From positions 1-64,000 of the forward strand of contig JACPOA010000082.1 in NCBI GenBank assembly GCA_016185205.1: DNA of 64,000 bases, given 5' to 3'. Positions 36,430-51,538 of this stretch are shown here, one piece after another. This DNA is from Hyphomicrobiales bacterium (GTDB lineage: Bacteria; Pseudomonadota; Alphaproteobacteria; Rhizobiales; Xanthobacteraceae). Position 1 is the first letter of the stretch. Every line of letters starts with the position of its first letter. The position numbers and the translations under genes were made by a program. A model generated the notes under the pieces. It had not been told where the DNA came from and did no database searches. It was given only the letters and a program-made list of their open reading frames with translations.

Positions 36430-36493
36430 CGAACGCCTCACAGGCGAAGTATGGCGGTGGAACTGGTTGAAGTTCCACACCCGTTTGAACCGC

Positions 36494-36512
36494 GTAACTC
36501 GGGACGAGTTAC
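36494..36512. promoter_or_regulatory. Perfect inverted repeat, candidate operator
   Basis: GTAACTCG and CGAGTTAC are separated by GGA, a perfect eight-base inverted repeat. It lies 65 bases upstream of the flavodoxin-like start. No known regulator is recognised for this sequence. Confidence 0.5.
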
Positions 36513-36703
36513 CCTGATAGCCACAGGCACAAAATGTTAATCGTAATCTGACAGGAGCCAACGCAAGCGCCATATATTAAGTCAACGAAATACCTTAGAA
36601 TTTGTCGATGCAGGCCGCCTTCGCCCTGCATGCTCCGTCCAATTGGCCGAACGTCCATGCCAGGCGGCGCCAGCGCGGATAATTCAATGAAACAGGCCGC
36701 TTT

Positions 36704-36717
36704 TTGATTTCAATCAA
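36704..36717. promoter_or_regulatory. FNR/FixK box upstream of the nonaheme cytochrome operon
   Basis: TTGATTTCAATCAA is an exact consensus match, 109 bases before the nonaheme gene start. It predicts low-oxygen induction of the operon at 36827-42106. Confidence 0.78.
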
Positions 36718-36826
36718 TAGGTCCATGGCCGCAAAGATTATGTACTTTCCGATCAAGCAAGCTGAACATAGGTCGGATTTTCGATCTCGATCGACGTTGC
36801 GCGCGAATAGCCTGGGTAGGAGAGCA

Positions 36827-38851
36827 ATGACCAAGTCGCACGAAAGCGCTGCCGCCGAGGAGTCTGGCGTCGGAGTGCGCACGCTGCCCAGGACTTGGGT
36901 CGCCGCCAGCTTTGTTCTTTTCGCTGCAATCGCCGGTCTGTGGGCCACGGACGCGAGGGCGCAAAGCGCCGCGACCGATCAAGCCGCACCCAAGCTCTCC
37001 AGCGAAACGTGCCTTGGCTGTCACGGCCAGGAGGGCTTCGCCCCGGCCAAGACCTCCGAGCCGAGCTTCTACATGCCGATGGTACTGAAAGACCGCTTCC
37101 TGGGCAGCGTGCACGGAAAGCGGCAGTGCGTCGAGTGTCACACCAACATCACCAAGGTGCCGCACGAGAAGGTCGAGGTGAAGGTCAGCTGCGTCAATTG
37201 CCATGAGAAGCTGTTGGATGCCGCGCAGGACGAGGAGAAGAAGGACGACATCGCCAAGCTGAGCGGCGTGGTCAATATGATCGGCCGCTACATGAAGTCG
37301 ATCCACGCGCAGCCCAACAAACAAGATCAGTCGCACACCAATGCCACCTGCTACAATTGCCACGAAGCCCACTACATCTATCCAAAGGGCAGCCCCAATC
37401 GGAACTGGTGGCGGCTCAACCTGCCGTATGCCTGCGGCTCATGCCACACCAAGGAACTCGAGGCCTACAAGACCTCGGTGCACGGCAAGGAGGCATTGCA
37501 GAACGGCAATCCGAAAGCGGCGGTCTGCTCGGATTGTCATACTACCCACGACGTTCAGAACCCCGCGCTCGACACGACGCGGCTCCTGATCACCAAGAAC
37601 TGCGGCAATTGTCACGAAGAGCAATTGAAGTCCTACATGGGGACCTACCACGGGCAGGTCAACACGCTGGGCTTCGCCTATACCGCGAAGTGCTTCGACT
37701 GCCACGGCAGCCACACGATCAAGCGGGTGGACGATCCGGCTTCGGGCGTGCATCCGAACAACCGCTTGCAGACCTGCCAGAAGTGCCATCTCGACGCAAC
37801 CGCTGGTTTCGCGACGTTCCAGCCGCATGCGAATGACAAAAACTTCAGCCGTTATCCCTACACCTGGCTCGCGACCAAGTTCATGCTGCTGCTGCTTGGC
37901 GGCGTCTTCGCGTTCTTCTGGACGCATTCGGCGCTCTGGTACTACCGCGAATTGCGTGACCATCAGCAGGGCAAGTCTCGGCCGCATGTGCGAACCGATG
38001 CGCTCCAGGGCAACGGCGGCGAACCGGTCGTCTACTACCAGCGCTGGCCCGCCATCTGGCGCATCGCTCACCTCTGCTTCGCCATTTGCGTGATCATGTT
38101 GGTGCTCACCGGCATGACGCTGCTGTTTGCCGACACGTACTGGGCGCCGGTCGTCAGCAAGCTTTTCGGCGGCCCGCGCGTCACCGGCAGTGTGCACCGC
38201 TTCTTCGCCGCCGCCTTTGTCGGAATTTTCTTCTGGCATATCGCCTATATCGCGCTCCGCATCGGCAAGAGCTGGAAGACCTTCCGCTGGTTCGGCCCGG
38301 ATTCGATGATCCCCAACTGGAACGACCTCAACGACGCCATCGGCATGTTCAAGTGGTTCTTCGGCCTGGCGCCGAAGCCACAACTCGACCGCTGGACCTA
38401 CTGGGAGAAATTCGACTATTGGGCGCCGTTCTGGGGCGTTGCCATCATCGGCGGCAGCGGCGCCATGCTGTGGGCGAAGGGTCTGACCGCCACCTACCTG
38501 CCCGGCTGGGTCTTCAACATCGCCACCATCTTCCACGGCGAGGAAGCGGTCCTGGCCGCCGGATTCCTGTTCACCGTGCACTTCTTCAATAATCACTGGC
38601 GGCCGGATAAATTCCCGCTTGATATTCTCATGTTCACCGGCAAGATGCCGCTCGAAGAATTCAAGCGCGAGCATCTCATTGAGTATAATCGCTTGGTGGC
38701 GAGCGGAGAGTTGTCGAAGTACCTGGTCGATGCACCATCGCAGCCGATGACGATCGCGTCCAAGATTCTCGGCTTCACATTGATGGGTAGCGGCTTACTG
38801 CTGCTCATCTTGGTGATGAACGGCTTCGCCCGCCACCTGTTCGGTGGGTGA
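36827..38851 (+). CDS. Nonaheme c-type / cytochrome b fusion, CbcL-like quinone oxidoreductase
   Basis: The 674-residue product has a signal/anchor helix (about residues 24-42), nine CXXCH motifs (first at residue 62; last CQKCHL near 350), then a membrane domain from about residue 385 with at least five helices and ligand-type His in WRIAHLCFA, VHRFFAAAF and TVHFFNNHW, resembling diheme cytochrome b561/HdrE-type domains. The nonaheme-plus-b layout is that of Geobacter CbcL, an inner-membrane quinone oxidoreductase used for extracellular electron transfer at low potential. It would link the quinol pool to periplasmic cytochromes. ATG 36827 follows AGGAGAG. Tetraheme genes follow closely. Confidence 0.87.
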   Translation: MTKSHESAAAEESGVGVRTLPRTWVAASFVLFAAIAGLWATDARAQSAATDQAAPKLSSETCLGCHGQEGFAPAKTSEPSFYMPMVLKDRFLGSVHGKRQCVECHTNITKVPHEKVEVKVSCVNCHEKLLDAAQDEEKKDDIAKLSGVVNMIGRYMKSIHAQPNKQDQSHTNATCYNCHEAHYIYPKGSPNRNWWRLNLPYACGSCHTKELEAYKTSVHGKEALQNGNPKAAVCSDCHTTHDVQNPALDTTRLLITKNCGNCHEEQLKSYMGTYHGQVNTLGFAYTAKCFDCHGSHTIKRVDDPASGVHPNNRLQTCQKCHLDATAGFATFQPHANDKNFSRYPYTWLATKFMLLLLGGVFAFFWTHSALWYYRELRDHQQGKSRPHVRTDALQGNGGEPVVYYQRWPAIWRIAHLCFAICVIMLVLTGMTLLFADTYWAPVVSKLFGGPRVTGSVHRFFAAAFVGIFFWHIAYIALRIGKSWKTFRWFGPDSMIPNWNDLNDAIGMFKWFFGLAPKPQLDRWTYWEKFDYWAPFWGVAIIGGSGAMLWAKGLTATYLPGWVFNIATIFHGEEAVLAAGFLFTVHFFNNHWRPDKFPLDILMFTGKMPLEEFKREHLIEYNRLVASGELSKYLVDAPSQPMTIASKILGFTLMGSGLLLLILVMNGFARHLFGG

Positions 38852-38900
38852 GCGTGAATTTTTCAATGAAATACCAACGAGCCAAAGGCCGGAGCTACCC

Positions 38901-40013
38901 ATGAAACATCTCCTGCTCGCCCTCTTGATGTCGGTCGCGCTGATCGGCTGCTCTGATAACGGCACGCCCGAAAAGCAGACCCAGGCGGACATCGCCGCCG
39001 GCAAGGTGGTAGCGGACAAGGAATGCAAAGGCTGTCATGGCCTTGATGGCAAAGGCACCGCTGCGGGCATTCCGAATCTCGCCGGGCAGCGCGGTCGCTA
39101 TCTGATGGCCTCGTTGAAGGAGTACAAGGATCGCGTCCGCACCCACGCCGCCTTGCGGACGATTGCGGCCACCATGAGCGAGGCCGACACCCGGGCGGTC
39201 GCTGCCTACTATGCCAGCCTGCCGCCGATTCCGACGCCAAAAGTGGAAATTTTCTCTCCCTACGAGCGCGGCAAGGTGGTGTCCGCCGACTGTGCGGGCT
39301 GCCATGGCGCGGACGGCAACAGCAAGACTCCCGGCACGCCCAACCTCGCCGGCCAGCAACCGCGCTATTTCGTGACGGCCACGCAGGAATATCTTCAGGG
39401 CCTGCGGGCATCGGCGCCAATGGATCCGATGCTGCGTAAGCTCAACAGGCTCGATCTGGAAAGCGTGGCGCTCTACTATGCGTCGCAAACGCCGGCACCG
39501 CGCAGCGCGCCGTCGACCGGCGATGCGGCAGCGGGCGAACCGCGCACCGCCGTGTGCGGCGGCTGTCACGGCTCGCACGGCGTGAGCACGGATTCGGCGA
39601 CCCCGAGCCTCGCTTCCGAAGACCCGGCCTATCTGACGCAAGCGATCAAGGCCTATCGCACCACGCGCAAGCACGACCTGATGCAGCGCCTGGTCTCGAC
39701 GCTCAGCGAGCAGGACATCGCCAATATCGTTGCGTTCTACACGACGCAAAAGTCGAAGCCGGCGGAAAATGGCCAAACGCTGCTCAAGGACATCACCGAC
39801 AAGTGCGAGCGTTGCCATGCCGGCGAAAGGGACAATCCGGCATTGGCGATCCCGATCATCGGTGGGCAAGATAAGGACTATCTGATACTGGCTTTGCGGG
39901 CCTATCGCGACGACAAGCGCGGCAATTCCATGATGCACAACATGAGCATGCCCTACAGCGACTCCATCATCGAGAGCATCGCGACCTACTACGCCAGCCG
40001 ACCAGCGAAGTAG
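38901..40013 (+). CDS. Tetraheme c4-like lipoprotein cytochrome
   Basis: The 370-residue product has a lipoprotein signal (MSVALIGC, lipobox Cys near residue 17) and four class I cytochrome c domains, each with one motif: CKGCH, CAGCH, CGGCH and CERCH. Each repeat shows the c4-like pattern NLAGQ...YL...AYK...AAYYAS. It is therefore two fused di-heme c4 units anchored to a membrane. It likely moves electrons between the nonaheme protein and periplasmic carriers. ATG 38901 follows GGAG at good distance, 49 bases after the previous stop. Confidence 0.85.
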   Translation: MKHLLLALLMSVALIGCSDNGTPEKQTQADIAAGKVVADKECKGCHGLDGKGTAAGIPNLAGQRGRYLMASLKEYKDRVRTHAALRTIAATMSEADTRAVAAYYASLPPIPTPKVEIFSPYERGKVVSADCAGCHGADGNSKTPGTPNLAGQQPRYFVTATQEYLQGLRASAPMDPMLRKLNRLDLESVALYYASQTPAPRSAPSTGDAAAGEPRTAVCGGCHGSHGVSTDSATPSLASEDPAYLTQAIKAYRTTRKHDLMQRLVSTLSEQDIANIVAFYTTQKSKPAENGQTLLKDITDKCERCHAGERDNPALAIPIIGGQDKDYLILALRAYRDDKRGNSMMHNMSMPYSDSIIESIATYYASRPAK

Positions 40014-40068
40014 GCGAAACGTGTTGGGCAGCATTGGCACGGCGAAAATGCAGATCGAGCGGATATTA

Positions 40069-41289
40069 ATGAAACGAAGCGTACGGTTTATTTTCCTGAT
40101 CGGGTCTATGCTCGTTGGAGGCGCAACGATCGTGGATTATTGCCCACGCGCAGTGGCTCAACCCGTTGCGTCCAGCACTTCCGACGACCTTCGCCCTCTG
40201 TACGCCATGCCTGAGGAGGTGGCCGAAGGGAAGCGGCTCGCGATGACTTCCTGCGCCGGCTGCCATGGCGCGAACGGTATCAACAACAATCCACGCGTAC
40301 CTAACCTTGCAGGCCAGCGCGCGGCCTATCTCTATATCGAGCTGAAGGCCTACCAATCCGGTGCCCGCGGCGACAGCGCCATGAACAACGCGGTCAAGTT
40401 CCTGAGCAATGACGCGATGGTCAAGGTGGCGGCCTATTTCGCGAGTCTCGATCCCCCGACGCCGACCGCTACCGGTGCGCCAGTCAATATCGACCCGGTG
40501 CAAGCCGGCAAGGCCGTGGCGACGGCGGCCTGTGCCGGCTGCCACGGCAACACCGGCATCAGCCAAATCCCCGGCACACCGAGCCTGGTCGGACTCGACC
40601 CGAAATACCTCGTCGACTCAATGAAGGCGTACAAGAATGGCCAGCGCAAGCACGACACGATGAAGGCGATGCTGGCGTCGGTTGGCGACGGGGCGATACA
40701 CAATATGTCGCTGTTCTATGCCCTGCAAAAGCCAGCACGCGCCAAGACCCCGGCCGCCGGCGACCAAGTCGCCGGCAAGAATGCCGCGGCGAGTTGCGGC
40801 GGATGCCACGGCGAACAGGGTGTGAGCGCAAGTCCGGCAACGCCGAGCCTGGCCGGACAAGACGCCCAATACACCGTGGCGGCATTGCAAGCTTACAAGA
40901 ACGGATCGCGCGCCGACGAAACGATGAAGGGAATAGTCGCGGCGCTTGACGATAATGCTATGAAAAATCTGGCGGCCTATTACGCGGCGCAGGAACCGAA
41001 GGCACCAAACGTTCGCAAGCCGTTGACTACCGAGGAATGGACCCAGCGTTGCGACCGTTGTCACGGCATCAACGGCAACAGCACAGATCCGCGCCTGCCA
41101 ATGCTGGCCAGCCAGCGCGTAGACTATTTGCAGAAGGTGCTGCATGATTATCGAACGGGCGCGCGCAAGAGCCCACAAATGGCCGCAATGGCCGACGTGC
41201 TGACAGAGCAGGATATCGAGGGCCTTGCGGCCCATTATGCGCGCCAAAGAGCGCGCGCCGTCGTGTTCGTGCCTCAGCCGAGCAAGTAG
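40069..41289 (+). CDS. Tetraheme c4-like cytochrome, periplasmic
   Basis: The 406-residue product has a signal peptide (ending near AVAQPV) and four CXXCH motifs (CAGCH, CAGCH, CGGCH, CDRCH) in tandem c4-like domains, much like its upstream neighbour. No lipobox is present, so it is probably soluble. It is the second of two related tetraheme proteins, likely a tandem duplication that diverged. ATG 40069 was chosen for the signal peptide; GTG 40021 and ATG 40048 are alternatives. Confidence 0.83.
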   Translation: MKRSVRFIFLIGSMLVGGATIVDYCPRAVAQPVASSTSDDLRPLYAMPEEVAEGKRLAMTSCAGCHGANGINNNPRVPNLAGQRAAYLYIELKAYQSGARGDSAMNNAVKFLSNDAMVKVAAYFASLDPPTPTATGAPVNIDPVQAGKAVATAACAGCHGNTGISQIPGTPSLVGLDPKYLVDSMKAYKNGQRKHDTMKAMLASVGDGAIHNMSLFYALQKPARAKTPAAGDQVAGKNAAASCGGCHGEQGVSASPATPSLAGQDAQYTVAALQAYKNGSRADETMKGIVAALDDNAMKNLAAYYAAQEPKAPNVRKPLTTEEWTQRCDRCHGINGNSTDPRLPMLASQRVDYLQKVLHDYRTGARKSPQMAAMADVLTEQDIEGLAAHYARQRARAVVFVPQPSK

Positions 41290-41305
41290 TGGGGCAATAA
41301 AACCA

Positions 41306-42106
41306 ATGGAACCGACGATGAGTGATTTTCCGCTCCACCGGCACTATCTCCATTACTCGGAGCTGCCGTACAGCCAGCGCGTTCTTTATACGGCGACGCT
41401 TCTCATCCTCGGCATGGCCTATCTATTCGCCATGCTCAACGTGTATTTCACCTACGCCGGCCGTGCGGGGGGAAATCCGCTGATGCTGTCATACGAGGAC
41501 ATCGTCGTCGCTTATTCCGGCAGCGGCAAGGGCTCGCGCTTGGAATCGGCCCTGCGCGGGCCGATGTCAGGCATGCTGCCGCCCGACGAGCGCAATGCCG
41601 TGTTCGCCTGGGCGGCCGAAGGCGGCTCACGTCCGGTATACGACAAGACGATCGCGCCACTGCTCGAGAAGCGATGCATGACTTGCCATGACGGCAGCAA
41701 TCCGCACCTGGTCAACCTCAACAACTTCGACAATCTGAAGAAAACGATGGAGAAGGACACTGGCGCCAAAGTCGCCACGCTGGTCCGCGTATCGCACATT
41801 CACCTGTTTGGGCTCACCTTCATCTTTTTCATAGTGGGCCTTATGTTCAGCCATGCCTATATGCGGCCAGTATGGTTGAAATGTACCGTCGTTGCATTAC
41901 CCTTTGTCGCCATCGTGCTCGATGTCAGTTCCTGGTATTTCACCAAGCTCTATCATCCGTTCGCTTGGGTCGTGATTGCGGCCGGCGGTCTGATGGCCAC
42001 GTGTTTCGCCTTCATGTGGCTGGTGACCATGTATCAGCTGTGGTTCTCTCGGCCTCCATCGATTGTCAGAGAGAGAGAGCGCGTCGACATTCCTAGCGTC
42101 GGCTGA
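41306..42106 (+). CDS. Membrane protein with one c-heme and four helices
   Basis: The 266-residue product has a helix at about residues 27-48, a periplasmic domain with CMTCH at residues 124-128, and three more helices (about residues 157-178, 186-206 and 214-240). His residues at the start of the second helix (VSHIHLFGL) could ligate a b-heme. No family name is recognised. The position behind the tetraheme genes suggests a membrane electron-transfer partner. ATG 41306 is preferred; ATG 41318 would shorten it by four residues. Confidence 0.72.
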   Translation: MEPTMSDFPLHRHYLHYSELPYSQRVLYTATLLILGMAYLFAMLNVYFTYAGRAGGNPLMLSYEDIVVAYSGSGKGSRLESALRGPMSGMLPPDERNAVFAWAAEGGSRPVYDKTIAPLLEKRCMTCHDGSNPHLVNLNNFDNLKKTMEKDTGAKVATLVRVSHIHLFGLTFIFFIVGLMFSHAYMRPVWLKCTVVALPFVAIVLDVSSWYFTKLYHPFAWVVIAAGGLMATCFAFMWLVTMYQLWFSRPPSIVRERERVDIPSVG

Positions 42107-42586
42107 TGGCGGTCGGACAAGAGACATGGTCGCCCCTTAATTGCGCGATCTTCACCCGATTGGGGTCGTGAAGGAAAAAACGGGAGCGCGCGAAGCGTCA
42201 GCCCGTCGCAGCTGCGATAACGATCCCAATAGCCAGCGTGGCTAGCCCAGCAACAATTGCGTCCTTGCCGCGCTTGCAGGCGAAGAAACGTCTGCGTCTC
42301 TCACAATATTTTCTTCACGCCCGCCGCAATAACTGCCCCAATAAAATATCAAACGCTTCTCACAACGATTCGCAATCTCGCCAACGCAATGCAAAGCAAC
42401 TTTGCTGACTTGGGGAACTCTTTGTTGCCGCAAAAAGCCATGCCCGTTGATGTAAATCAAACTCGATCGATTGCTTTCCGTTGATAATGAATTAGTTCGC
42501 TAAGCTTTCCCGACGACAGAATGACGTACGGGAGGGCCAATAAAAAAATTCGAGGGTGCCAGGAAACGCAAAGGAACGGGAACGCC
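42107..42586. other. AT-richer regulatory gap inside the cytochrome block
   Basis: This 480-base stretch separates the nonaheme operon from the hexaheme operon. It holds an FNR/FixK box (42447-42460) and no convincing coding sequence; a minus-strand frame near 42242-42460 lacks a start with a ribosome-binding site. Confidence 0.5.
42447..42460. promoter_or_regulatory. FNR/FixK box upstream of the hexaheme-FeS-NrfD operon
   Basis: TTGATGTAAATCAA is an exact consensus match 126 bases before the hexaheme gene. Confidence 0.76.
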
Positions 42587-43624
42587 ATGCCGCGTCATAT
42601 CGTCCGACTCGTCCTGATTATGGTCGGCTTCGCTGTGTTGGCGTATGGGGCGAAACAGTTTTTTACAGTCGATTCGTTTTATCAATACGGACATTATCGA
42701 GGAAGCTCCGTAGCGGACATCGCGTCGGACAAACCGAAATACAAAGGTACCGCCTATTGCGCGTCATGCCATGCGCCGCAGCTCGCGGAATGGTCCAACG
42801 GCATCCACAACAGACCCGATATTGGCAAGGTTGTCAGGTGTGAGGTCTGCCATAGCGCCGGCGGCGAGCGCGATGTTCGCGGCACGTTCGAACATGTGTC
42901 GACTGGTCCCGATCATCCGAAAAATCTGAAAATGGTCGTGCCGAAAGATACGCGGCAGTTGTGCACGCTTTGCCACGAGCGGATGACCGGCAGACCATTG
43001 CAGCAGCGTCAGATCGTCGTGGCCGAGCACGCCGGGACCCAGCAGTGCAGCGTTTGTCATAACCCCCACTCGCCCAGGCTCAATTTGGTATCCGCCGCAT
43101 CGACGGCACAAGCAGGCGATGCGGCCGCGGGCAAGGCCAAGGCCGCGGCTTGCGCGGGTTGCCACGGCGCTGAAGGCGTCAGCGTAAACGCTCCCGGCCC
43201 CACCCTGGCGGGACAGCACGCGGCCTATCTACACGATGCGCTCAAGGCCTATATCGAGGGCACGCGTAGCGACCCGATGATGAACGCGGGAGCTCAGGGG
43301 TTGAGCGATGACGATGCCGCAAATATCGCGGCTTATTACGCCGGCGTGACGTGCGTGAGTTCTTTGGATGCGGCAAAGCAAGCCACGCTGCAGGACAAGA
43401 CGACAGCACCGAAGTGTGCAGCCTGCCACGGCGCCGATGGAAACAGCACCAATCCCTCATGGCCGAAGCTCATCGGACTATCCAAAGCCTATCTCGTCAA
43501 CTCTCTGAAAGCCTACAAGGGCGGCGCTCGCAAGAACGGCATGATGGCCGGGGTCGTCAAGGATATGAGCGACGCGGACATGGATAACGTGGCGGCATAC
43601 TACGCCAACGCGACTTGCAAGTGA
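42587..43624 (+). CDS. Hexaheme c-type cytochrome with NrfH-like and c4-like parts
   Basis: The 345-residue product has an N-terminal anchor helix (about residues 6-24), four CXXCH motifs in a multiheme region (CASCH, CEVCH, CTLCH, CSVCH) and then two class I cytochrome c domains (CAGCH, CAACH) with the c4-like LAGQ...AYK...AAYYA pattern. It looks like a fusion of an NrfH/c3-type tetraheme module with a diheme c4 module. With the following Fe-S and NrfD genes it makes a cytochrome-FeS-NrfD set, as in Geobacter Cbc4 (CbcSTU). ATG 42587 follows AAGGAA. Confidence 0.82.
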   Translation: MPRHIVRLVLIMVGFAVLAYGAKQFFTVDSFYQYGHYRGSSVADIASDKPKYKGTAYCASCHAPQLAEWSNGIHNRPDIGKVVRCEVCHSAGGERDVRGTFEHVSTGPDHPKNLKMVVPKDTRQLCTLCHERMTGRPLQQRQIVVAEHAGTQQCSVCHNPHSPRLNLVSAASTAQAGDAAAGKAKAAACAGCHGAEGVSVNAPGPTLAGQHAAYLHDALKAYIEGTRSDPMMNAGAQGLSDDDAANIAAYYAGVTCVSSLDAAKQATLQDKTTAPKCAACHGADGNSTNPSWPKLIGLSKAYLVNSLKAYKGGARKNGMMAGVVKDMSDADMDNVAAYYANATCK

Positions 43625-43663
43625 GACGCGGCAAAACTGAAGGTTGGCCAGGAGCACTGCAAA

Positions 43664-44527
43664 ATGCAACAGAATGAGCAACTCGAGAACCAACCGGACG
43701 AGCAACTCGAGAAGCAACAGAAAGAGCGCCGCGATTTTCTGGGTTGCCTCGGCGGCGCGATCGCCTGCGGCGCGGCTACCGTGGTGGCAAGTGCCGCCTC
43801 GTCTGCGGCCGTGGCGGCCACGGCCGGCGGCGCGGTGCCGCCCATTCCGAACTTCGATTGGAGTAAACATCAATGGGCATTCGGCGTCGACGCCGAAAGA
43901 TGCATCGGCTGTCTGCGCTGCGTTGAGGCGTGCAAGCGGGAAAACAATGTCGCGCCCGACGCCCATCACTTCCGCACCTGGGTCGAGCGCTACGTGACGT
44001 TGGAGGGAGAAGAGAAGGCCCGCATCGACAGTCAGGCGGACCCCGCGAATATCGCGGCTTCCGGAACCGATGGACAATATCGATTCGCCAATCGCTACAA
44101 GGATGCGAAAGTCGAAAAGGCCTTTTTCGTTCCCAAGCTATGCAATCACTGTACGCATCCGGCTTGCGTGCAGGTGTGCCCGACCGGCGCGACCTACAAA
44201 ACCGAGGACGGCGCGGTCCTCATCGATCATACCTATTGCATCGGCTGCCAATACTGCGTGCAGGCCTGTCCTTATGGTGCACGGTTTTTCAACGAGGAAA
44301 AGGGCGTAACGGACAAGTGCACCTGGTGCTACCACCGCATCACGAAAGGCTTGCAGCCCGCTTGCGTGGAGGTTTGTCCGGTTAGCGCGCGTATCTTCGG
44401 CGACCGCAATGACAAACAAAGCCTGATCAGCCAATTCATCCAAAACCATCGCGTGCAGGTGCTCAGACCCGAGACCGGCAATGCTCCAAATGTCTTCTAC
44501 GTCGGCATAGACAAGGATGTGAGCTAA
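43664..44527 (+). CDS. NrfC-like 4Fe-4S ferredoxin subunit
   Basis: The 287-residue product has a twin-arginine-like start (QKERRDFLGCLGG, about residues 20-32) and four cluster motifs: CIGCLRCVEAC, CNHCTHPACVQVC, CIGCQYCVQAC and CTWCYHRIT...CVEVC. It would move electrons between an NrfD membrane partner and cytochrome c. It lies 39 bases after the hexaheme gene and overlaps the NrfD gene (TAATG), so the three are one unit. It is related to the ArrB-like protein at 26175 but has its own signal. Confidence 0.9.
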   Translation: MQQNEQLENQPDEQLEKQQKERRDFLGCLGGAIACGAATVVASAASSAAVAATAGGAVPPIPNFDWSKHQWAFGVDAERCIGCLRCVEACKRENNVAPDAHHFRTWVERYVTLEGEEKARIDSQADPANIAASGTDGQYRFANRYKDAKVEKAFFVPKLCNHCTHPACVQVCPTGATYKTEDGAVLIDHTYCIGCQYCVQACPYGARFFNEEKGVTDKCTWCYHRITKGLQPACVEVCPVSARIFGDRNDKQSLISQFIQNHRVQVLRPETGNAPNVFYVGIDKDVS

Positions 44528-45705
44528 TGGACGCTCTATTTCACGCCTCGCCGTTCACCGGATACGTTTATCCCAATGAAACGGTTATTCCATGGACCGT
44601 GTTGATCGTGGTCTATCCCTATCTCACGGGGTTGGTCGCAGGCGCCTTCACCATTTCAAGTTTGTACCAGGTGTTTGGCTTCACGCAATTGAGGCCGGTA
44701 GCGCATTTTGCGCTGCTCATCTCGTTGTGTTGCATGCTTACCGTTCCACTGCCCTTACTATTGCATCTCGGCCAACCCGAGCGCGCATTCAATGCAATGA
44801 TAACGCCACACGTAACCTCCGCCTTTGCGGTCTTCGGCTATGCGGCTGGTTTCTACATTATTCTGCTGGTCTTAGAGACTTGGTTTGTATTTCGACCCCA
44901 CATCGTACAGCAGGCGCAGCAACGGACTGGGGTCATGCGCTGGTTCTACAGCATCTTGTCGCTCGGATCCTATGACCTGTCCGAGAAGGCGATGAGCTAT
45001 GACCGCAAATGGCTGTTCACTTTGGCAATCATCGGTATTCCCGGCGCCCATGGACTGCATGGATATGTCGGGTTTGTGTTCGGTTCTTTGAAGTCGCGCG
45101 AGTGGTGGTCGTCCGATCTTATGCCGGTCATATTTCTATTGTCGGCGATCATCTCCGGTACCGCGTTCGTGATCGTCCTCTATGTTGTATCTTGCAAGCT
45201 CCGCAAAGTGTCGATCGATCTATCGTGCATGAAGGTCATGGCCTATGCGCTATGGGGCTTCATGATGTTCACGCTGCTCATAGAAGGCGTCGAATTCCTC
45301 AGCCTGGTTTATCGCGGGCGTGAGGGAATCGAGGTCATCCTGGAATTCGTCACTGGGCCGCTCATCATTCCCTTCTTTATTCTGCAATTCGGCATCGGTT
45401 CGGTGCTGCCGCTGATCGTCATCACTTTCCTGATCTGGCGCGGCACCAGCGGAACAGCGCTCATTGTCGGCATCACCGGAAGCGCGATCCTTGTCCTGCT
45501 CGCGGTGCTGATGATGCGCTATAATGTTGTTATCGGCGGACAGGAAATTTCAAAAACGGCAAAAGGGTTGATCGCCTATCATCCACCCATTCTCGGCCGG
45601 GAAGGCTTGTTGGCGGCGGGCATCGTGCTGACCGTCCCGCTGATCTTGCTGTCAGTGCTGGTCCGCTTGTTCACACCTTGGCACGACTCGCCCCGGACGG
45701 CCTGA
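44527..45705 (+). CDS. NrfD/PsrC-family quinone-interacting membrane subunit
   Basis: The 392-residue product has about ten membrane helices, with early VVYPYLTGLVAGAF and PLLLHLGQPERAFN motifs shared by NrfD, PsrC and ActC. Such proteins oxidise or reduce quinones at the membrane without heme. With the upstream hexaheme and Fe-S proteins it forms a quinone:cytochrome oxidoreductase. No molybdoenzyme is next to it; the ArrA-like enzyme 15 kb away lacks a membrane partner and could in principle share it. Confidence 0.88.
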   Translation: MDALFHASPFTGYVYPNETVIPWTVLIVVYPYLTGLVAGAFTISSLYQVFGFTQLRPVAHFALLISLCCMLTVPLPLLLHLGQPERAFNAMITPHVTSAFAVFGYAAGFYIILLVLETWFVFRPHIVQQAQQRTGVMRWFYSILSLGSYDLSEKAMSYDRKWLFTLAIIGIPGAHGLHGYVGFVFGSLKSREWWSSDLMPVIFLLSAIISGTAFVIVLYVVSCKLRKVSIDLSCMKVMAYALWGFMMFTLLIEGVEFLSLVYRGREGIEVILEFVTGPLIIPFFILQFGIGSVLPLIVITFLIWRGTSGTALIVGITGSAILVLLAVLMMRYNVVIGGQEISKTAKGLIAYHPPILGREGLLAAGIVLTVPLILLSVLVRLFTPWHDSPRTA

Positions 45706-46399: not shown

Positions 46400-46400
46400 C

Positions 46401-46430
46401 AAAAAAACGCGCGGCATTGAGTGCCGCGCG
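46401..46430 (-). terminator. Intrinsic terminator of the small monoheme gene
   Basis: On the minus strand CGCGCGGCA pairs with TGCCGCGCG around a five-base loop, followed by seven T residues. It ends the monoheme gene (46514-46738) and is the probable landing site of the group II element. Confidence 0.9.
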
Positions 46431-46513
46431 TTTTGCCTTCCGAATATTGCGAACGCTGTCGGACTTGCGGTCCAACCGCAGTCGTCATCAGCCGCTATGG
46501 CGCTACGGCTCAG

Positions 46514-46738
46514 TTAGAGCTTGTTGCCGTTGTCCTTGAACTTTTGGCCGGCCGGCTTGAGCGCGCCGCCGCCCGCTGGATTCTGATGGCAGAATCCGCA
46601 GGGTTTGCCAGTTGAGGCTGCGAATTCTGGCTTGGCGCTCGCCGGTTGCGACCCAATCACGGCCATCGTGCCAACGATCAAAATCGCGGCCGCCGCGCCG
46701 CAAACAATGCCGAAAGTGTTCCTTGCATCCATTTTCAT
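46514..46738 (-). CDS. Small monoheme c-type cytochrome
   Basis: The 74-residue product has a signal peptide (residues 1-35, ending QPASAKP) and a single CGFCH motif in the mature part, followed by GGGALKPAGQKFKDNG. It is a very small periplasmic electron carrier, perhaps serving the outer-membrane conduit encoded divergently. Two FNR-type boxes lie upstream. ATG 46738 gives the full signal peptide. Confidence 0.82.
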   Translation of the reverse strand: MKMDARNTFGIVCGAAAAILIVGTMAVIGSQPASAKPEFAASTGKPCGFCHQNPAGGGALKPAGQKFKDNGNKL

Positions 46739-46887
46739 AGCGTTTCTCTCCGTTGCTGATAACCGACTGGTTGAACGCACTTATTATCTGTCGATGTGTC
46801 GTTTTATACACACATGGCTTTTTGCTTTTCATCAAGCCATCAACACGCTTGAACATTGATAAAAATAGCAAAAACAAAGGGCGTAAC

Positions 46888-46901
46888 GTTGATCCAGGTC
46901 A
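46888..46901. promoter_or_regulatory. FNR/FixK box between the monoheme and decaheme genes
   Basis: TTGATCCAGGTCAA matches TTGAY-N4-RTCAA. It lies 150 bases upstream of the monoheme gene and 302 bases upstream of the decaheme gene. Confidence 0.7.
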
Positions 46902-46941
46902 ATCTGCCGGCCGGTCCCATACACAGGGAACATTGGCAAAT

Positions 46942-46955
46942 TTGACGCAGATCAA
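46942..46955. promoter_or_regulatory. Second FNR/FixK box in the divergent gap
   Basis: TTGACGCAGATCAA matches TTGAY-N4-RTCAA. It is 248 bases upstream of the decaheme gene and 204 bases upstream of the monoheme gene. Confidence 0.68.
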
Positions 46956-47203
46956 AGTGCGAATTGCCTTGCGCGTACATTAAAAAATGGAAATGCTAAC
47001 AAGGCAAAGTTAAGGCAACAGGGGCTGAAAAAGGGGACGGGTTGCCGGGCATCGTAGGGTTGAGTGTGTGCCTAGCGACTATGATGATCCTTAAGTGTCA
47101 AAGTATTGTCGAGTAACGTCCCGTTCGGCCCAAATGATTTGGATCTACAGTCAGCGTCGCGTCGACGCGTGACGTAGAGTTTTGTGGCGGCGGGGGTGGT
47201 TAC

Positions 47204-48559
47204 GTGAAAAACTGTGATCGTAGAGCAGCCGATATTGCTTCCAACGAAGCGTCGTCAGCGCAAGTTACGCAAAAATCAAAATTCAGATTGAGTAGAAAAT
47301 TTTTATTCTTTACAGCGTCAGCGCTCATCTTCGGCACTTCGCTGGGCCTGACCCAATCCGTCAAGGCCGATGGAGCTTTAACCGTCGCGGGCATCCAGTC
47401 GGCGCTGCAGGGTGAGCAGCAAGCGCTCAAGTCACAGCAAGCCACCCAGGCTTCCCAGCAAGACGATGCCGTGTCGGCGCTGAGCAGCTTTGCCCAGCAG
47501 ATCGGCGCTCCGGCCGCCAAGGCGGACGCCAAGTTCGACGATCAAGCCTTCGCGGCGCTGCAAGATTTCGCGCAGCGCCTGGGTACGGCACAGCCGCAGT
47601 CGATCAAGGCCCTGCCGAAAGTGGCCGAGGCCAAGAGCTTGCTCGAGTTCCTCCAGCAGGGAGGCTCCTCTTCGCAAAGCGAGCCTGCCGCACCGCCAAA
47701 AAGTTCGGCTGCCGGCGGGAAGCGTACGAGCGCGCCCGTCGAAGCTCACTTTGTCGGGGCCAAGGCTTGCTTGACTTGCCACGCGAAACAGACCGCGGAG
47801 TTCGAGCGGACCCTGATGGGCAAGATCGGTAAGACCCAAAAGGGTAAATTTGAGTGCGAGAACTGCCATGGTCCGGGCTCGGCCCACGTGAAGGCCGGCG
47901 GCGGACGCGGCGTTGGCGGCATCCTGTCGTTCGGCAAAGATGATCCGCGTTCCGTCGAGGAAAGAAATGGCCTCTGCCTTGGCTGTCACCAGAAGGGCGA
48001 GCGCAATTACTGGGCCGGCAGCATTCACGAAACGCGCGGAGTTGCCTGCACCAACTGCCACACCGTCATGAAAGACGTGTCGCGCAAGCACGCGCTGAAG
48101 ACCGAAGTTGAGGCCGAGACCTGTTATCAGTGCCATCAGCTCAAGCGGGCGCAGATGCAGTACTCGTCGCACATGCCGATTCGCGAGGGCAAGGTGACGT
48201 GTTCGAACTGCCATAATCCGCATGGCAGCATCACGGAAAAACTGATCCGTGAAGCCTCGGTGAACGACAACTGCTACAAGTGCCATGCCGAGAAGCGCGG
48301 TCCGTATCTTTGGGAACACGCGCCGGTGCGTGAGAGCTGCCTGAACTGCCACAAGCCGCACGGTTCGAATTACGAGTACCTGCTGCAAGTGGCGCGGCCG
48401 CGGCTGTGCAACGAATGCCACACCGCCGTTCACAACCCGACTGCCAGTGGCGGATTCGGTTTCCCGAACACCGCCTATGTGTTGGGTCGCGCTTGCGGCA
48501 ACTGCCACAGCAATATCCACGGTTCCAACCACCCGAACGGTATGCTTTTCCTGCGATAA
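47204..48559 (+). CDS. Decaheme c-type cytochrome, MtrA/PioA (DmsE) family
   Basis: The 451-residue product has a signal peptide (about residues 30-55, ending SVKADG), a Gln/Ala/Ser-rich extension without hemes (about residues 57-180) and ten CXXCH motifs from residue 189 (CLTCH) to CGNCHSNIH. MtrA-type proteins sit inside an MtrB-type barrel and carry electrons across the outer membrane. The N-terminal extension recalls PioA of Rhodopseudomonas, used for iron oxidation. The start is GTG 47204; no ATG gives the signal peptide. The barrel gene follows 58 bases later. No outer-surface MtrC partner and no PioC-type HiPIP are seen. Confidence 0.9.
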   Translation: MKNCDRRAADIASNEASSAQVTQKSKFRLSRKFLFFTASALIFGTSLGLTQSVKADGALTVAGIQSALQGEQQALKSQQATQASQQDDAVSALSSFAQQIGAPAAKADAKFDDQAFAALQDFAQRLGTAQPQSIKALPKVAEAKSLLEFLQQGGSSSQSEPAAPPKSSAAGGKRTSAPVEAHFVGAKACLTCHAKQTAEFERTLMGKIGKTQKGKFECENCHGPGSAHVKAGGGRGVGGILSFGKDDPRSVEERNGLCLGCHQKGERNYWAGSIHETRGVACTNCHTVMKDVSRKHALKTEVEAETCYQCHQLKRAQMQYSSHMPIREGKVTCSNCHNPHGSITEKLIREASVNDNCYKCHAEKRGPYLWEHAPVRESCLNCHKPHGSNYEYLLQVARPRLCNECHTAVHNPTASGGFGFPNTAYVLGRACGNCHSNIHGSNHPNGMLFLR

Positions 48560-48617
48560 GAACCGATATTCGAGAGCCGACGATCGTACTGAGAGTTTAC
48601 AGGTAGGGGCGACGACT

Positions 48618-50846
48618 ATGAAAATGCGGGCTGGATTTCTAGCAACATGCGCGGCGAGTGCCTTGGTCATCGGCATGGGATTCGCTTCGCCGGCGCTGGC
48701 CGCCGACCAGATGGTCACGAAGGCGCCGGCGGCCGAACCACTGCAGTGGTGGTACGAGGGCTTCATTGAAGTCGGCGCTCGCTTCAACCTGAACAATCCG
48801 GACAAGAGAACGTTAGGAAAGTTCTACGAGTATCGTGACCTCAGGCCCGGCGTGTTCGGCAATTTCTATATTGCCGCGCATAGGAACAACCCCATCGATA
48901 TCGCCTTCTGGGGGAAGAACGTCGGCTACAATGACCAGGCCTTCGGTCTCGATTTCGCAAAGCCGGGCGAGCACTATCTGTCCCTGGGGTGGGACGAAAC
49001 TCCGAAAGTTTACTCCAAGAACGCCAAGACCTTGTATGACGGCGTCGGCACCAACAACCTGACCATTCCAATATTCTTGACGCCGCCGCCAGGGGCCGGG
49101 CCGGCGGCAGCCATCGCTGCCAACAGCAAGGTTTTTGACCTCCAATACCGTCGTGATACGTTTAGCGTGAATCATCGCTGGACTCCCACCGATGCTTGGG
49201 ATGTCAACGTCGACTACACGCATTTGCGCCGCCAAGGGACTCAGCCATTAGGGGCAGTATCGTTCTCAAACATCAACACACGATCGGCTTTCGAGCTTCC
49301 GAAGCCGGTCGATGACGTCACCCAGAACGGCAATATCAAAGGCGAATATGCCGGCTCCACCCCATGGGGCAAGCCGTTCAACGTCGCGCTTGGCTACGGC
49401 TTCTCGCTCTACAACAACGCCGATAATGCCCTAGTCTTCCAGAATCCGTGGAATGCGGTCAATCCCGCAGGCGCGCCGCTCAATAACCGATATTCGCTGG
49501 CGCCGGACAATAAGGCGCAAACCCTGAGCTTGTCCGGAGGCGTCGGCCTGCCTTGGAACAGCCGCTATATGGGCACGTTCCAATACACAAAGATGCAGCA
49601 GCAAGACTCGATCCTGCCATGGACGAGCAATCCGCTGGTTCCGACGCCCGTGTTCACGACGCCGAACCGTGACGTGAACACGACACTGTTCAACAACGTG
49701 CTCAATACGCAGATTACCGCGGATCTGAAATCGACCCTGCGCTACCGCTACTACGACTTCCGCTATTCTAATAACACACCAGTCATTGTGGTCGGACCGT
49801 GGAATGCTAACCCCGACTCGAATACGGGTTTTGAGGGTACGGAAATTACCTACCCGAAAAGTTATACCAAACAGAACGCCAGCGCTGAATTGGCTTGGCG
49901 TGCGGTGAAATGGCTGAACGTCGGCGCCGGCTATGATTGGGAACGCTGGGACCGTGACTACCGCGATACCGCTGTTACCAACGAGAACATAGTCAAGGTA
50001 TTCGCCGACTCCAAATGGGCGGTCTGGTCCACGATGCGGGCGAGCTTGCAGTATGGCGAGCGGCGGTACAATCAATATATCACTATGGTCGAAGTCAATA
50101 ACGATGCCATGCGAATGAAGGATCTCGCCAATCGGGACCGCTTCAAAGGCATGGCCTCCTGGGCCGTCGACGTCACCCCGATGATCACGGTCACGCCGAA
50201 CGGCGGCTTCCTCAACGACGATTACAAGACCGATATCCTTGCCAGACCGGAAGCCGAAATCGGACTCAAGCACACTCGTTCGTGGAACGTCGGGACCGAT
50301 GTCGCGTTTAATGTCAATCGCAACGCGGCCCTCTACGTTTCCTACAATTATGAAAGCTCCTATCGTCAAGTCTACCAGAACGGTCCCGATCCTGACCTGA
50401 ACATCGAATCGCGTGACGGGATCCACACCTTCATAGTTGGCAGCAAGGTCGCGCTGATTCCCGAAAAGCTGCTTGTTGACGCAAACTACACCTGGACCAG
50501 GTCGACATCGAAGTGGGACCTGAGCTGCGGGCCATTCGGCTGCCGATACAGCCCGCTGGCGACGTTCCCGGACTCTCACAACACGTTGCAGCGTCTCGAT
50601 GTGCAGGCGAAATACTTCCTCGATGACTCTTGGGTCCGCGGCTTTGGTTGGGCCGGGAAAGCCTTCGTGAAGGCTCGCGTGCTGTGGGAGAGGAATTCGT
50701 CCGACGCTTGGCAGCCTCTCCAAAATCAGCTTGGTTGGCTCGTCAACCCCGGCAACACCACGACGGCATATTCGATCTGGATGGGCACCGGCAATCCGAA
50801 CTACGACGTGGTATTGGGCCAGCTGTCCTTCGGCGTGAAGTGGTGA
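48618..50846 (+). CDS. Outer-membrane barrel protein of the MtrB/PioB family
   Basis: The 742-residue product has a signal peptide (about residues 1-29, ending PALAADQ) and a long barrel of alternating polar and aromatic strands closing with LSFGVKW. It matches the MtrB/PioB decaheme-associated barrel family in length and strand pattern, for example RYRYYDFRYSNNTP and ALYVSYNYESSYRQVYQ. It should sheath the decaheme protein encoded just upstream. The N-terminal CXXC of Shewanella MtrB is not present. A terminator follows at 50889-50914. Confidence 0.9.
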   Translation: MKMRAGFLATCAASALVIGMGFASPALAADQMVTKAPAAEPLQWWYEGFIEVGARFNLNNPDKRTLGKFYEYRDLRPGVFGNFYIAAHRNNPIDIAFWGKNVGYNDQAFGLDFAKPGEHYLSLGWDETPKVYSKNAKTLYDGVGTNNLTIPIFLTPPPGAGPAAAIAANSKVFDLQYRRDTFSVNHRWTPTDAWDVNVDYTHLRRQGTQPLGAVSFSNINTRSAFELPKPVDDVTQNGNIKGEYAGSTPWGKPFNVALGYGFSLYNNADNALVFQNPWNAVNPAGAPLNNRYSLAPDNKAQTLSLSGGVGLPWNSRYMGTFQYTKMQQQDSILPWTSNPLVPTPVFTTPNRDVNTTLFNNVLNTQITADLKSTLRYRYYDFRYSNNTPVIVVGPWNANPDSNTGFEGTEITYPKSYTKQNASAELAWRAVKWLNVGAGYDWERWDRDYRDTAVTNENIVKVFADSKWAVWSTMRASLQYGERRYNQYITMVEVNNDAMRMKDLANRDRFKGMASWAVDVTPMITVTPNGGFLNDDYKTDILARPEAEIGLKHTRSWNVGTDVAFNVNRNAALYVSYNYESSYRQVYQNGPDPDLNIESRDGIHTFIVGSKVALIPEKLLVDANYTWTRSTSKWDLSCGPFGCRYSPLATFPDSHNTLQRLDVQAKYFLDDSWVRGFGWAGKAFVKARVLWERNSSDAWQPLQNQLGWLVNPGNTTTAYSIWMGTGNPNYDVVLGQLSFGVKW

Positions 50847-50888
50847 GTTGGCCGCAAGACGCCGTCCTTCCTCAGTAATACACGATCG

Positions 50889-50914
50889 GGAGCGGCCTTC
50901 GGGCCGCTCCTTTC
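50889..50914 (+). terminator. Intrinsic terminator after the MtrB-like gene
   Basis: GGAGCGGCC-TTCG-GGCCGCTCC followed by TTTCGTTT. The UUCG loop on a nine-pair stem makes a stable terminator. Confidence 0.85.
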
Positions 50915-50993
50915 GTTTGAGCCGCCTGCTTTGCTTGCGGGTGGCGGCCGCGCTCAGCCAAGCACCGTACGCTTAGTCCCGGACCGGACTTTT

Positions 50994-51007
50994 TTGATAT
51001 GCGTCAA
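50994..51007. promoter_or_regulatory. FNR/FixK box upstream of a monoheme cytochrome
   Basis: TTGATATGCGTCAA matches TTGAY-N4-RTCAA, 87 bases before the gene at 51095. Confidence 0.7.
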
Positions 51008-51094
51008 TCGCGAATCCGCCTATAATTATAAGATGATACCGCTCGCTGGGGCACCGGCGAGGACGACACCCCTTGAAATGGCAGGAGACCGGCT

Positions 51095-51538
51095 ATGAAG
51101 CGGCAACCTCTTTTATTGGCAGCGGGGGCTGCGCTGGCCGTTGTGGCGGCGGTGGGCCTGACGCTCACCACCTCGTCCCCGGCCTATTGTCAGGCCGCGC
51201 CCAAGACCGCGCCTAAGGCGCAGACCAGCCAGAGCAAGCAGAGCTTCCGCGAGGATATCGTGCCGATCTTCAAGGGCCGCTGCGAGAGTTGCCATCAGCC
51301 GAACGGCGAAGGCACCCAGAAGAGCGGGCTCGACCTCACCAGCTATGCCGGCGTCATGAAGGGCACCAAGTTCGGGCCCATGGTCATCCCGGGCGATCCG
51401 GAGAGCAGCAATCTGATGCTGTTGCTCGATTGGCGCGCGTCGGCGGAGCTGCGCATGCCGCACGGCAAGAAGCAGCTGTCGTCGTGCGACCGCAACGCCA
51501 TCCGCGCCTGGATCCGCGAGGGCGCCAAGGACAATTGA
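51095..51538 (+). CDS. Monoheme c-type cytochrome domain protein
   Basis: The 147-residue product has a signal peptide (about residues 1-32, ending PAYCQA) and one CESCHQ motif in a domain resembling the planctomycete-type cytochrome C (PSCyt1) family: FREDIVPIFKGRCESCH, GEGTQKSGLDLTSYAGVM, VIPGDPESSNLM and RAWIREGAKDN. It is probably a soluble periplasmic electron carrier. GGAG precedes ATG 51095, and an FNR-type box lies upstream. It marks the end of the cytochrome block. Confidence 0.85.
   Translation: MKRQPLLLAAGAALAVVAAVGLTLTTSSPAYCQAAPKTAPKAQTSQSKQSFREDIVPIFKGRCESCHQPNGEGTQKSGLDLTSYAGVMKGTKFGPMVIPGDPESSNLMLLLDWRASAELRMPHGKKQLSSCDRNAIRAWIREGAKDN

Follow-up and report, generated by a model that had tools for sequence, protein, structure and literature searches.

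The window (the whole 64-kb stretch of DNA that was analysed, which comes from an alphaproteobacterium, as the earlier note had inferred) contains a block of multiheme cytochrome genes, which are listed with their neighbours in Table 1. Counted on both strands, 36 CXXCH motifs lie in eight genes of the block, as the earlier note had stated; one of these genes, a detail missing from that note, is on the minus strand. The plus strand contributes 35 motifs (9, 4, 4, 1, and 6 in g1 to g5, 10 in g8, and 1 in g10), and the 36th is CGFCH at position 46600, within an 88-aa minus-strand open reading frame (ORF) at 46514-46780. Because 35 of the 37 plus-strand motifs in the window fall within the block (of the other two, one is at 55583 and one, at 27582, contains a stop), a chance origin of this set was ruled out.

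Table 1. Genes and other features of the cytochrome block and its flanks. Positions are those of the window; for several genes (g1 to g5, gm, and g9) the likely start, placed by eye, lies downstream of the ORF start.
Feature	Positions	Strand	Remarks
HemG-type protoporphyrinogen dehydrogenase, neighbour	35866..36573	-	NF008316 139.1 bits, cut-off 142
FixK/FNR box TTGATTTCAATCAA	36704..36717	+	starts 123 bp upstream of likely g1 start
g1: CbcL/MtoC/MtrH-family nonaheme c plus b cytochrome, predicted quinone oxidoreductase	36827..38851 (ORF from 36704)	+	9 CXXCH, C7 domains
g2: tetraheme c4-like cytochrome, proposed periplasmic relay	38901..40013	+	4 CXXCH, Cytochrom_C 98.4 bits
g3: second tetraheme c4-like cytochrome	40069..41289	+	4 CXXCH, Cytochrom_C 99.7 bits
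g4: monoheme membrane protein, four TM-like segments	41318..42106	+	1 CXXCH
FixK/FNR box TTGATGTAAATCAA	42447..42460	+	starts 140 bp upstream of g5
g5: membrane-anchored hexaheme cytochrome (4 multiheme-type + 2 c4-like hemes)	42587..43624	+	6 CXXCH
g6: multi-[4Fe-4S] protein	43664..44527	+	Fer4_11 E 1.1e-28
g7: NrfD-type membrane subunit, proposed quinone-reactive	44527..45705	+	PF03916 127.8 bits
gm: small monoheme cytochrome, opposite strand	46514..46738	-	CGFCH
two FixK/FNR boxes (46889, 46942)	46889..46955	+	between divergent gm and g8
g8: decaheme MtrA/PioA-type cytochrome	47204..48559	+	TIGR03508 259.2 bits, cut-off 192.2
g9: MtrB/PioB-type outer-membrane barrel	48618..50846 (ORF from 48447)	+	TIGR03509 358.9 bits, cut-off 240.05
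terminator-like stem-loop downstream of g9	50888..50911	+	consensus match; region has 8 such sites vs 17.1 in shuffles
FixK/FNR box TTGATATGCGTCAA	50994..51007	+	starts 101 bp upstream of g10
g10: small monoheme cytochrome, PSCyt1-like	51095..51538	+	PF07635 36 bits
ccmH, ccmF, ccmE, ccmI (cytochrome c maturation), neighbours	52438..56837	-	ccmE, ccmI NCBIfam; ccmH, ccmF by eye

Gene content of the block

The CbcL-family protein claimed for the block by the earlier note is indeed present, as g1. Members of the CbcL/MtoC/MtrH family carry several N-terminal CXXCH motifs (3-23 in the family and 9 in G. sulfurreducens; PMC6295460), and g1 has nine. Their C-terminal part is a diheme b cytochrome of the HydC/FdnI-like type, in which histidines are conserved. 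The corresponding membrane half of g1 has more than three invariant histidines across 15 aligned sequences, a Pfam match to Ni_hydr_CYTB below the cut-off (20.7 versus 30.1 bits), and a low-confidence structure model (pLDDT 60.5) whose best PDB match is FdnI (1kqf_C; probability 1.00, E 5.9e-4); one PDB match of this model passed the E 0.001 threshold. No relative of g1 was found in the plasmid sequence collection.

The c4-like parts of g2, g3, and g5 are shared with PdsA, a periplasmic diheme shuttle; however, these proteins score far below the PdsA family cut-off of 330 bits (123.5, 118.3, and 69.5 bits, respectively) and have four or six hemes rather than two. By eye, g2 has a lipobox-like LIGC. 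The g4 product matched no Pfam or NCBIfam family, and its structure model (pLDDT 82.2) matched no PDB entry at E<=0.001; its CXXCH and an SHIH-FG motif are invariant in 22 aligned sequences, and it represents a heme protein that is widespread but falls into no known family.

The iron-sulfur/NrfD pair described in the earlier note is clearly recognizable as g6 and g7. The former scores slightly below the DsrO cut-off (192.9 versus 200 bits) and has a Tat-like RRDFL (by eye), and the preceding g5 combines Cytochrome_C7 and Cytochrom_C domains with a TM-like stretch at ORF residues 22-41. The three genes form an adjacent c cytochrome, FeS, and NrfD set with the layout of Cbc4 and of NetBCD. Cbc4 (CbcSTU) of Geobacter, SirCD of Shewanella, and NetBCD of Aeromonas are likewise quinone modules connected with extracellular electron transfer (PMC11434368, PMC8805035), and an FeS/NrfD-type pair is part of their make-up, that of NetBCD included. 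The likeness is one of composition, and g5 differs in being a hexaheme protein with two c4-like domains.

The MtrAB/PioAB-type conduit and its MtrB-like barrel, also anticipated, were confirmed by TIGR03508 and TIGR03509 scores above cut-off. In addition, g8 matches the MtrA chain of the PDB complex (6r2q_A) with 229.6 bits, and g9 matches PF11854 with 347.1 bits and 6r2q_B with 73.4 bits. Profile search found no family match for gm, relatives of which sit near MtrA in other Xanthobacteraceae.

Recurrence and descent of the parts

Relatives of g1 were sought with two peptide patterns taken from Xanthobacteraceae rows, which could miss Geobacter, and the best 80 of 234 were kept. Near CbcL in 80 named loci, many of which are cut by contig ends, g2 was present in 43, g3 in 22, g4 in 25, g5-g6-g7 in 11, MtrA in 18, and MtrB in 12; g10 was present in 6, and the HemG-type gene and CcmF in 10 each. 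This locus survey shows that genes 1-7 form a module recurring in alpha-, beta-, and gammaproteobacteria. All 11 genes are present in another genome of the family, G003, whereas the same-genus genome G232 gave no g7 match. The uncultured Sterolibacterium LJ_bin-2701 (L031) holds g1 to g9 in 16 kb (CbcL, c4A, c4B, g4, hexaheme-FeS-NrfD, a weak HemG match, MtrA, and a cut MtrB with a weak match of 75 bits). It differs from the block in gene order, in the absence of detectable gm and g10 from the locus, and in its MtrA, which is 40% identical and sits in the beta/gamma part of the tree. Contamination of one MAG as the source of the locus was rejected, as like gene sets occur in L022 and L023 (same genus), G003, G047, and G126. 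For G003 itself, the listed contamination is 6%.

We compared MtrA loci within the Xanthobacteraceae, leaving out G181 and the fragmentary G343. The 11 loci that have MtrAB but lack the module are labelled Pio-type here; two of them were checked for reaction centre, RuBisCO, and HiPIP. Module genes were found at 6 of the 10 non-Pio loci (the window and G003 counted) and at none of the 11 Pio-type loci, save one partial c4-like match in L139. At the remaining four non-Pio loci (G037, G012, the second MtrAB of G232, and G311, a 3.2-kb contig) no module gene was found in the fetched stretch; the conduit and the module are therefore separable.

Midpoint-rooted trees gave different affiliations for the two parts. 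The 21 MtrA rows (the window and 20 others, from 20 family genomes) form one clade with 100/100 support, in which the 11 Pio-type rows are a subclade. The seven Xanthobacteraceae rows of the g1 tree group with one Burkholderiales row (support, 98) and are placed among beta rows, and g2 groups with three rows, two of them beta and one Steroidobacteraceae (100/96). The NrfD rows of the Xanthobacteraceae are not one clade, and the g3 rows not quite one; thus, more than one transfer or loss has occurred, and descent with losses may be an alternative to transfer for the history of the module. Because the module recurs in other proteobacteria and the MtrA clade includes the Pio-type rows, the set is, as judged from these comparisons, an apparent chimera: a beta-affiliated module beside a Xanthobacteraceae conduit that is related to Pio but lies outside the Pio-type group. 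A 13-heme frame in L131 was rejected as a real fusion, as it contains an undetermined residue.

FixK/FNR boxes

The block with its immediate flanks (35801-51600; 15.8 kb) contains six perfect FixK/FNR boxes, with 0.044 expected and no more than one in 500 shuffles, and the whole window contains eight (0.15 expected; no more than two in 200 shuffles). Those in the block precede g1, g5, the gm/g8 pair, and g10, plus one more. The box TTGATATGCGTCAA recurs identically at 12709 ahead of g10 in the same-genus locus L129, and G003 has a box ahead of g5 only. Of 74 related loci, 35 have a perfect box upstream of CbcL, compared with 220 of 3,700 random windows from the same loci, the rows being related to one another; 13 of 42 tabulated loci have no box. 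Upstream of MtrA, a box is present in 4 of 9 other non-Pio loci and in 7 of 11 Pio-type loci. The perfect boxes at the block and at CbcL loci are a new finding as putative sites, that is, as sequence matches. For R. palustris, PMC3050613 reports that FixK activates pioABC in photoferrotrophic growth and that, under other phototrophic conditions, pioABC was expressed more strongly when fixK was lost. FixK/FNR would be a testable regulator for the CbcL/MtoC/MtrH gene family.

Proposed electron route and its direction

Our best explanation of the whole, which we consider fairly probable, is that this chimeric set encodes a low-oxygen-induced, ubiquinone-linked extracellular electron route, with a slight lean towards export. 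The genome has no MqnA/D match and no MenD match above cut-off, and its quinone pool is predicted to be ubiquinone only. Two inner-membrane modules, g1 and a g5-g6-g7 complex, would exchange electrons with this pool; g2, g3, and the small monohemes would carry electrons over the periplasm to MtrA (g8), and g8 inside the g9 barrel would reach the cell surface with no MtrC-type cap. At low oxygen, the transcription units would be turned on by regulators of the FixK/FNR type. If this is true, a Pio-related conduit is placed in non-phototrophic alphaproteobacteria, and a recurring proteobacterial module is named that links a pair of quinone enzymes with a wire through the outer membrane. With a chance just short of even, genes 1-7 are a mobile, oxygen-repressed proteobacterial cassette (two quinone modules, c4 relays, and g4) that joins whichever conduit the host owns: Pio-related in Xanthobacteraceae, Mto/Mtr-like in Betaproteobacteria, and none nearby in others. 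Dark, non-phototrophic Xanthobacteraceae, palsa MAGs included, would then be electroactive through a lineage of conduits that is known elsewhere from photoferrotrophs.

Proteins of the CbcL/MtoC/MtrH family occur in iron reducers and iron oxidisers alike, and direction is unreadable from their sequence (PMC6295460). We slightly favour electron export in a heterotroph, with ferric iron, humics, or a soluble compound as the acceptor, rather than uptake from Fe(II). On the side of export, an ArrA/ArrB/TorD-like set with its own FixK/FNR box lies 7 kb upstream of the block, and the CbcL gene of Rhodoferax L099 is directly preceded by ArrA, ArrB, and TorD relatives, the first with 78% identity. The reductase (27.0-29.6 kb) has a score of 1053.7 against a family cut-off of 1600 and is therefore termed ArrA-like only. 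Against export, MtrAB-only conduits such as PioAB and MtoAB have been linked to uptake, and iron oxides of low potential are poorly supplied with electrons by a pool that contains ubiquinone only.

Uptake is accordingly a serious alternative, although we give it somewhat less than an even chance: like PioAB and MtoAB, the conduit would draw electrons from Fe(II), minerals, or other cells, reduction of ubiquinone would fall to g1 and g7, and the c4-type cytochromes would feed an oxidase or nitrite under microoxic or anoxic conditions. It is favoured by the predicted ubiquinone-only pool, by the kinship of the conduit with the Pio-type rows together with its long N-terminal extension, and by the apparent lack of an MtrC-type surface cytochrome, as the earlier note had observed. 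In MtrCAB, a decaheme MtrC adjoins MtrAB, whereas motif counting found no such gene within the window, and PF14522, the sole genome-wide scan for MtrC, found outside the block only an octaheme and two pentahemes, one of the latter NrfA-like. Relatives of MtoC are present in Gallionella and Sideroxydans MAGs (scan and g1 tree), and the boxes upstream of MtrA at Pio-type loci point the same way. PioABC of Rhodopseudomonas palustris TIE-1 shares with the block the lack of MtrC, the presence of FixK boxes, a long N-terminal region (in PioA cleaved before use), and, through the family's Pio-type rows, a related MtrA lineage. However, the block has extra inner-membrane and periplasmic genes, and the 188 residues preceding the first heme of g8 show no significant similarity to Pio-type extensions. 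Moreover, profile searches of the genome matched no RuBisCO and no reaction centre (PF00124, for which both Pio-type controls tested were positive), leaving no obvious autotrophy for uptake to supply. Nor did the genome match HiPIP (PF01355), in line with the absence of PioC claimed earlier; of the Pio-type controls, G074 has its match about 3 kb from MtrA and G170 elsewhere, and PF01355 may therefore miss some PioC. An N-terminal CXXC in MtrB may be a mark of metal reducers. It is lacking in g9 and present, together with a decaheme neighbour, in the L036 and L054 barrels, which would favour uptake; the lead is weak, however, as L079, L083, L086, and L098 have decaheme neighbours of the same cluster and barrels without CXXC, and a literature search found no statement of such a rule for MtrB.

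It is unlikely that the module is not extracellular at all and chiefly supplies periplasmic reductases (ArrA-like and NrfA-like), with MtrAB serving a separate purpose. Such a role would fit the ArrA/ArrB/TorD-like genes, the Rhodoferax stretch, in which no MtrA was found, the genome's NrfA-like pentaheme, which has no other CXXCH ORF in the surrounding 16 kb, and the 62 of 80 named loci with CbcL and without MtrA in the available stretch, partly through contig ends. On the other hand, g8 and g9 share a locus and boxes with the module, module genes accompany MtrA at most non-Pio loci, and a strong ArrA relative was found at one other fetched locus only, besides two weak matches.

The version of the earlier note, in which Geobacter inner-membrane parts were joined across phyla to a proteobacterial conduit, is very improbable: its nine-heme, FdnI-like CbcL architecture and Cbc4-like trio (composition from an excerpt of PMC11434368) are there, but the relatives found for g1 to g5 and g7, in a comparison set without Geobacter sequences, are proteobacterial and close (for g1, 49-66% identity over the best segment to beta/gamma relatives among the best 80 of 234, the closest of which are proteobacterial), and published MtoC/MtrH proteins share about 35% identity with Geobacter CbcL (PMC6295460). 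A nonaheme mtoC adjoining mtoAB has already been published for Gallionella ES-2 and Dechloromonas (PMC5566968, PMC6295460). The inner-membrane set is thus largely a conserved locus already, a possibility the earlier note had allowed for, whereas our literature search found no description of the Xanthobacteraceae version or of this combination of parts; the parts are known proteobacterial ones, and their combination is new as far as that search shows. In MtoABCD (Gallionella capsiferriformans ES-2 and Dechloromonas aromatica) and in MtrH with MtrABC (Rhodoferax ferrireducens), a CbcL-family protein, nonaheme in ES-2, likewise adjoins MtrA/MtoA and a barrel (PMC6295460, PMC5566968). Compared with these systems, the block has a Pio-related conduit, two tetraheme c4-like proteins, g4, g5-g7, and FixK boxes.

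Composition of the multiheme cytochrome block

A motif scan of the block (36.8-51.5 kb) bore out the earlier count of eight genes with 36 CXXCH motifs: 35 lie in seven genes on the plus strand and one lies in a small gene, gm, on the minus strand. Inside the block are 35 of the 37 plus-strand CXXCH motifs of the 64-kb window. Genes g1 to g10 were assigned to families by Pfam and NCBIfam profile scans (see the table). A CXXC motif in MtrB proteins may be a mark of metal reducers, and NetBCD is an NrfD-type enzyme. The proposed MtrAB/PioAB-type conduit is supported by profile matches over the cut-off for g8 and g9. In a PDB sequence search, g8 matched the MtrA chain of 6r2q and g9 its MtrB chain.

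We regard the locus as a chimeric variant of the Mto/Pio-type electron conduit, to which are added another quinone module and a membrane cytochrome, g4, that matches no Pfam or NCBIfam family. Among the matches listed in the open-licence literature, a scope with subscription journals mostly outside it, no paper dealt with the Xanthobacteraceae locus. Published work already describes mtoC alongside mtoAB, counts NetBCD, PdsA, and mtoC among the companions of mtrCAB, and reports the trimming of PioA.

Features of the window, with family assignments
Feature	Position	Strand	Remarks
ArrA-like, ArrB-like and TorD-like genes	25469-29589	-	FixK box before the set, at 29697
161-aa gene	33527-34009	-	no family; preceded by a FixK box (34036)
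Sixth FixK/FNR box	35829		upstream end of malic enzyme ORF
HemG-type gene	35866-36573	-	quinone-linked heme biosynthesis; near CbcL
g1			C7-type hemes; b561-like membrane half, below cut-off
g2, g3			class-I (c4-like) proteins with four hemes each
g4	41318-42106		monoheme membrane protein; no Pfam or NCBIfam family
g5			hexaheme
g6			FeS protein with several clusters
g7			NrfD
g8			MtrA-type decaheme cytochrome; score above cut-off
g9			MtrB/PioB match; score above cut-off
g10			small cytochrome, PSCyt1-like
Cytochrome c maturation genes	52438-56837	-	adjoin the block

Relatives of the module and of the conduit

The label CbcL for g1 is right at the level of the CbcL/MtoC/MtrH family: the protein has nine c hemes and a putative FdnI-like membrane half, the latter in a low-confidence model. 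Its description as Geobacter-type was not supported by the best 80 of its 234 relatives. A scan of named genomes, built on two peptide patterns both drawn from Xanthobacteraceae rows, yielded 234 g1 relatives, the best 80 of which are all titled Proteobacteria or subgroups (about 53 betaproteobacterial by manual count). According to one study (PMC6295460), Proteobacteria, as then defined, hold 103 of the 138 members of this family, and MtoC/MtrH are ~35% identical to Geobacter CbcL. In a tree of 84 g1 rows, seven Xanthobacteraceae rows and one Burkholderiales row were grouped (98) among betaproteobacterial rows; the remaining alphaproteobacterial rows were placed with gammaproteobacterial rows or apart. 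Three of 385 alphaproteobacterial genomes in a class-wide sample, the window's own counted, had a g1 match at E<=1e-30, and a single-protein query with g1 matched 8 of 149 genomes in the family sample, strongly in three (the window's own, G126, and G003). In L022, which comes from a genome of the same genus, a second, divergent CbcL copy with five hemes is flanked by gm and HemG (11193-12749, minus strand).

Among the best 80 of the 234 named CbcL loci, many of which end early at contig ends, g2 was found in 43, g3 in 22, g4 in 25, g5-g6-g7 in 11, MtrA in 18, and MtrB in 12; for the 31 of these loci with >9 kb on either side, the counts were 18, 10, 11, 6, 8, and 5, respectively. The locus of an uncultured Sterolibacterium (L031) has g1 to g9, with neither gm nor g10 found. 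Among the rows listed in the module-gene trees, those from Xanthobacteraceae stand beside or among betaproteobacterial rows, forming one group for g2 (100/98), g4 (88/94), and g5 (85/94, with L031 next, 97/96) and requiring two changes for g3 and three for g7, where the NrfD of G003 groups with betaproteobacterial rows (100/100). Together with the proteobacterial titles of the best 80 g1 relatives, this placement leaves the proposed assembly from parts of different phyla unsupported. Of 398 Pseudomonadota genomes, 63 have a match to the g4 family, and 57 of these belong to a single family of small genomes; near three g4 copies from two genomes of that family no other module genes were found, except for a weak c4-like match adjoining one copy.

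MtrA matches occurred in 24 of 391 Xanthobacteraceae genomes, two of them weak. The loci used come from 20 genomes, among them the window's and G003; G181, the fragments of G343, and the two weak matches were left out. In a tree of 39 MtrA rows, the 21 family rows form a single clade (100/100), separate from the 18 rows that come from beta-, gamma-, and other alphaproteobacteria. Within it, the 11 Pio-type rows (loci with MtrAB and without the module) form a subclade (100/100), outside which the window's row falls. Module genes are carried by 6 of the 10 non-Pio loci and by none of the 11 Pio-type loci, except for one partial c4-like match (L139). In the same-genus genome G232, g1 to g4, HemG, two gm, MtrA, MtrB, g10, and ccm genes are arranged almost as in the window, with no g7 match anywhere in the genome; in G271, g5-g7 are located on a separate contig. 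G232 also has a second MtrAB pair (contig C23, 164-4254). Its MtrA shares 67% identity with that of the window, and the 14 kb fetched around the pair contain no module genes.

FixK/FNR boxes

The electron conduit locus is apparently oxygen-repressed. The FixK/FNR pattern TTGAYNNNNRTCAA has 8 perfect matches in the window versus 0.15 expected (14 versus 3.68 with one mismatch allowed), and six of these boxes lie in 35801-51600 versus 0.044 expected (<=1 in 500 shuffles). Five of the six precede g1, g5, g8/gm (two), and g10. Of the 74 loci with sufficient sequence upstream of CbcL, 35 have a perfect box there, although these are not independent events because the rows are related; among random windows of equal size drawn from these loci, 220 of 3,700 contain one. 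For MtrA, a perfect upstream box is seen at 7 of the 11 Pio-type loci and at 4 of the 9 further family loci covered, as raw counts with no random control for this window size. The box is absent from 13 of the 42 loci tabulated, and G003 has it only before g5. As described in PMC3050613, FixK control of pioABC is activating during photoferrotrophic growth, and the effect of a fixK mutation is reversed under other phototrophic conditions.

The familyless 161-aa gene has relatives (43-54% identity) close to the corresponding locus in L022, L023/L129/L189, and L024. By eye, several betaproteobacterial CbcL loci (L040 12868-15929, L043, L051, and others) are adjoined by an NtrC-like regulator and a sensor histidine kinase whose sensor region carries a CXXCH motif.

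Host physiology and direction of electron flow

Profile searches of 14 genomes matched RuBisCO in three (weakly in G012, and in the Pio-type G170 and G074), the reaction centre in two (G170 and G074), and HiPIP in three (G161, G170, and G074). None of these was matched in the window's genome (96% complete), in agreement with the PioC HiPIP having been noted as missing. In the same genome, all seven MenD matches fell below the cut-off and MqnA/D had no match, which points to a likely ubiquinone-only pool.

We keep both electron export and electron uptake as readings, leaning slightly to export. Uptake is favoured by the missing MtrC and the kinship with Pio. An anaerobic respiratory setting is favoured by the ArrA-like set with its FixK box, relatives of which (78/64/55% identical for ArrA/ArrB/TorD-like) directly precede CbcL in Rhodoferax (L099, 5231-9355); the ArrA-like protein scores 1053.7 bits versus a cut-off of 1600. 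Elsewhere in the window's genome, contig C90 (L186, 7660-9255, minus strand) has by eye an NrfA-like pentaheme gene, with no further CXXCH ORFs in the 16 kb fetched around it. HemG lies near CbcL in 10 of the best-80 loci (L022, L023, L031, L043, L044, L048, L072, L094, L095, and L096), with weak matches (28-38% identity) in the more distant ones, and CcmF is also near CbcL in 10 of the best-80 named loci.
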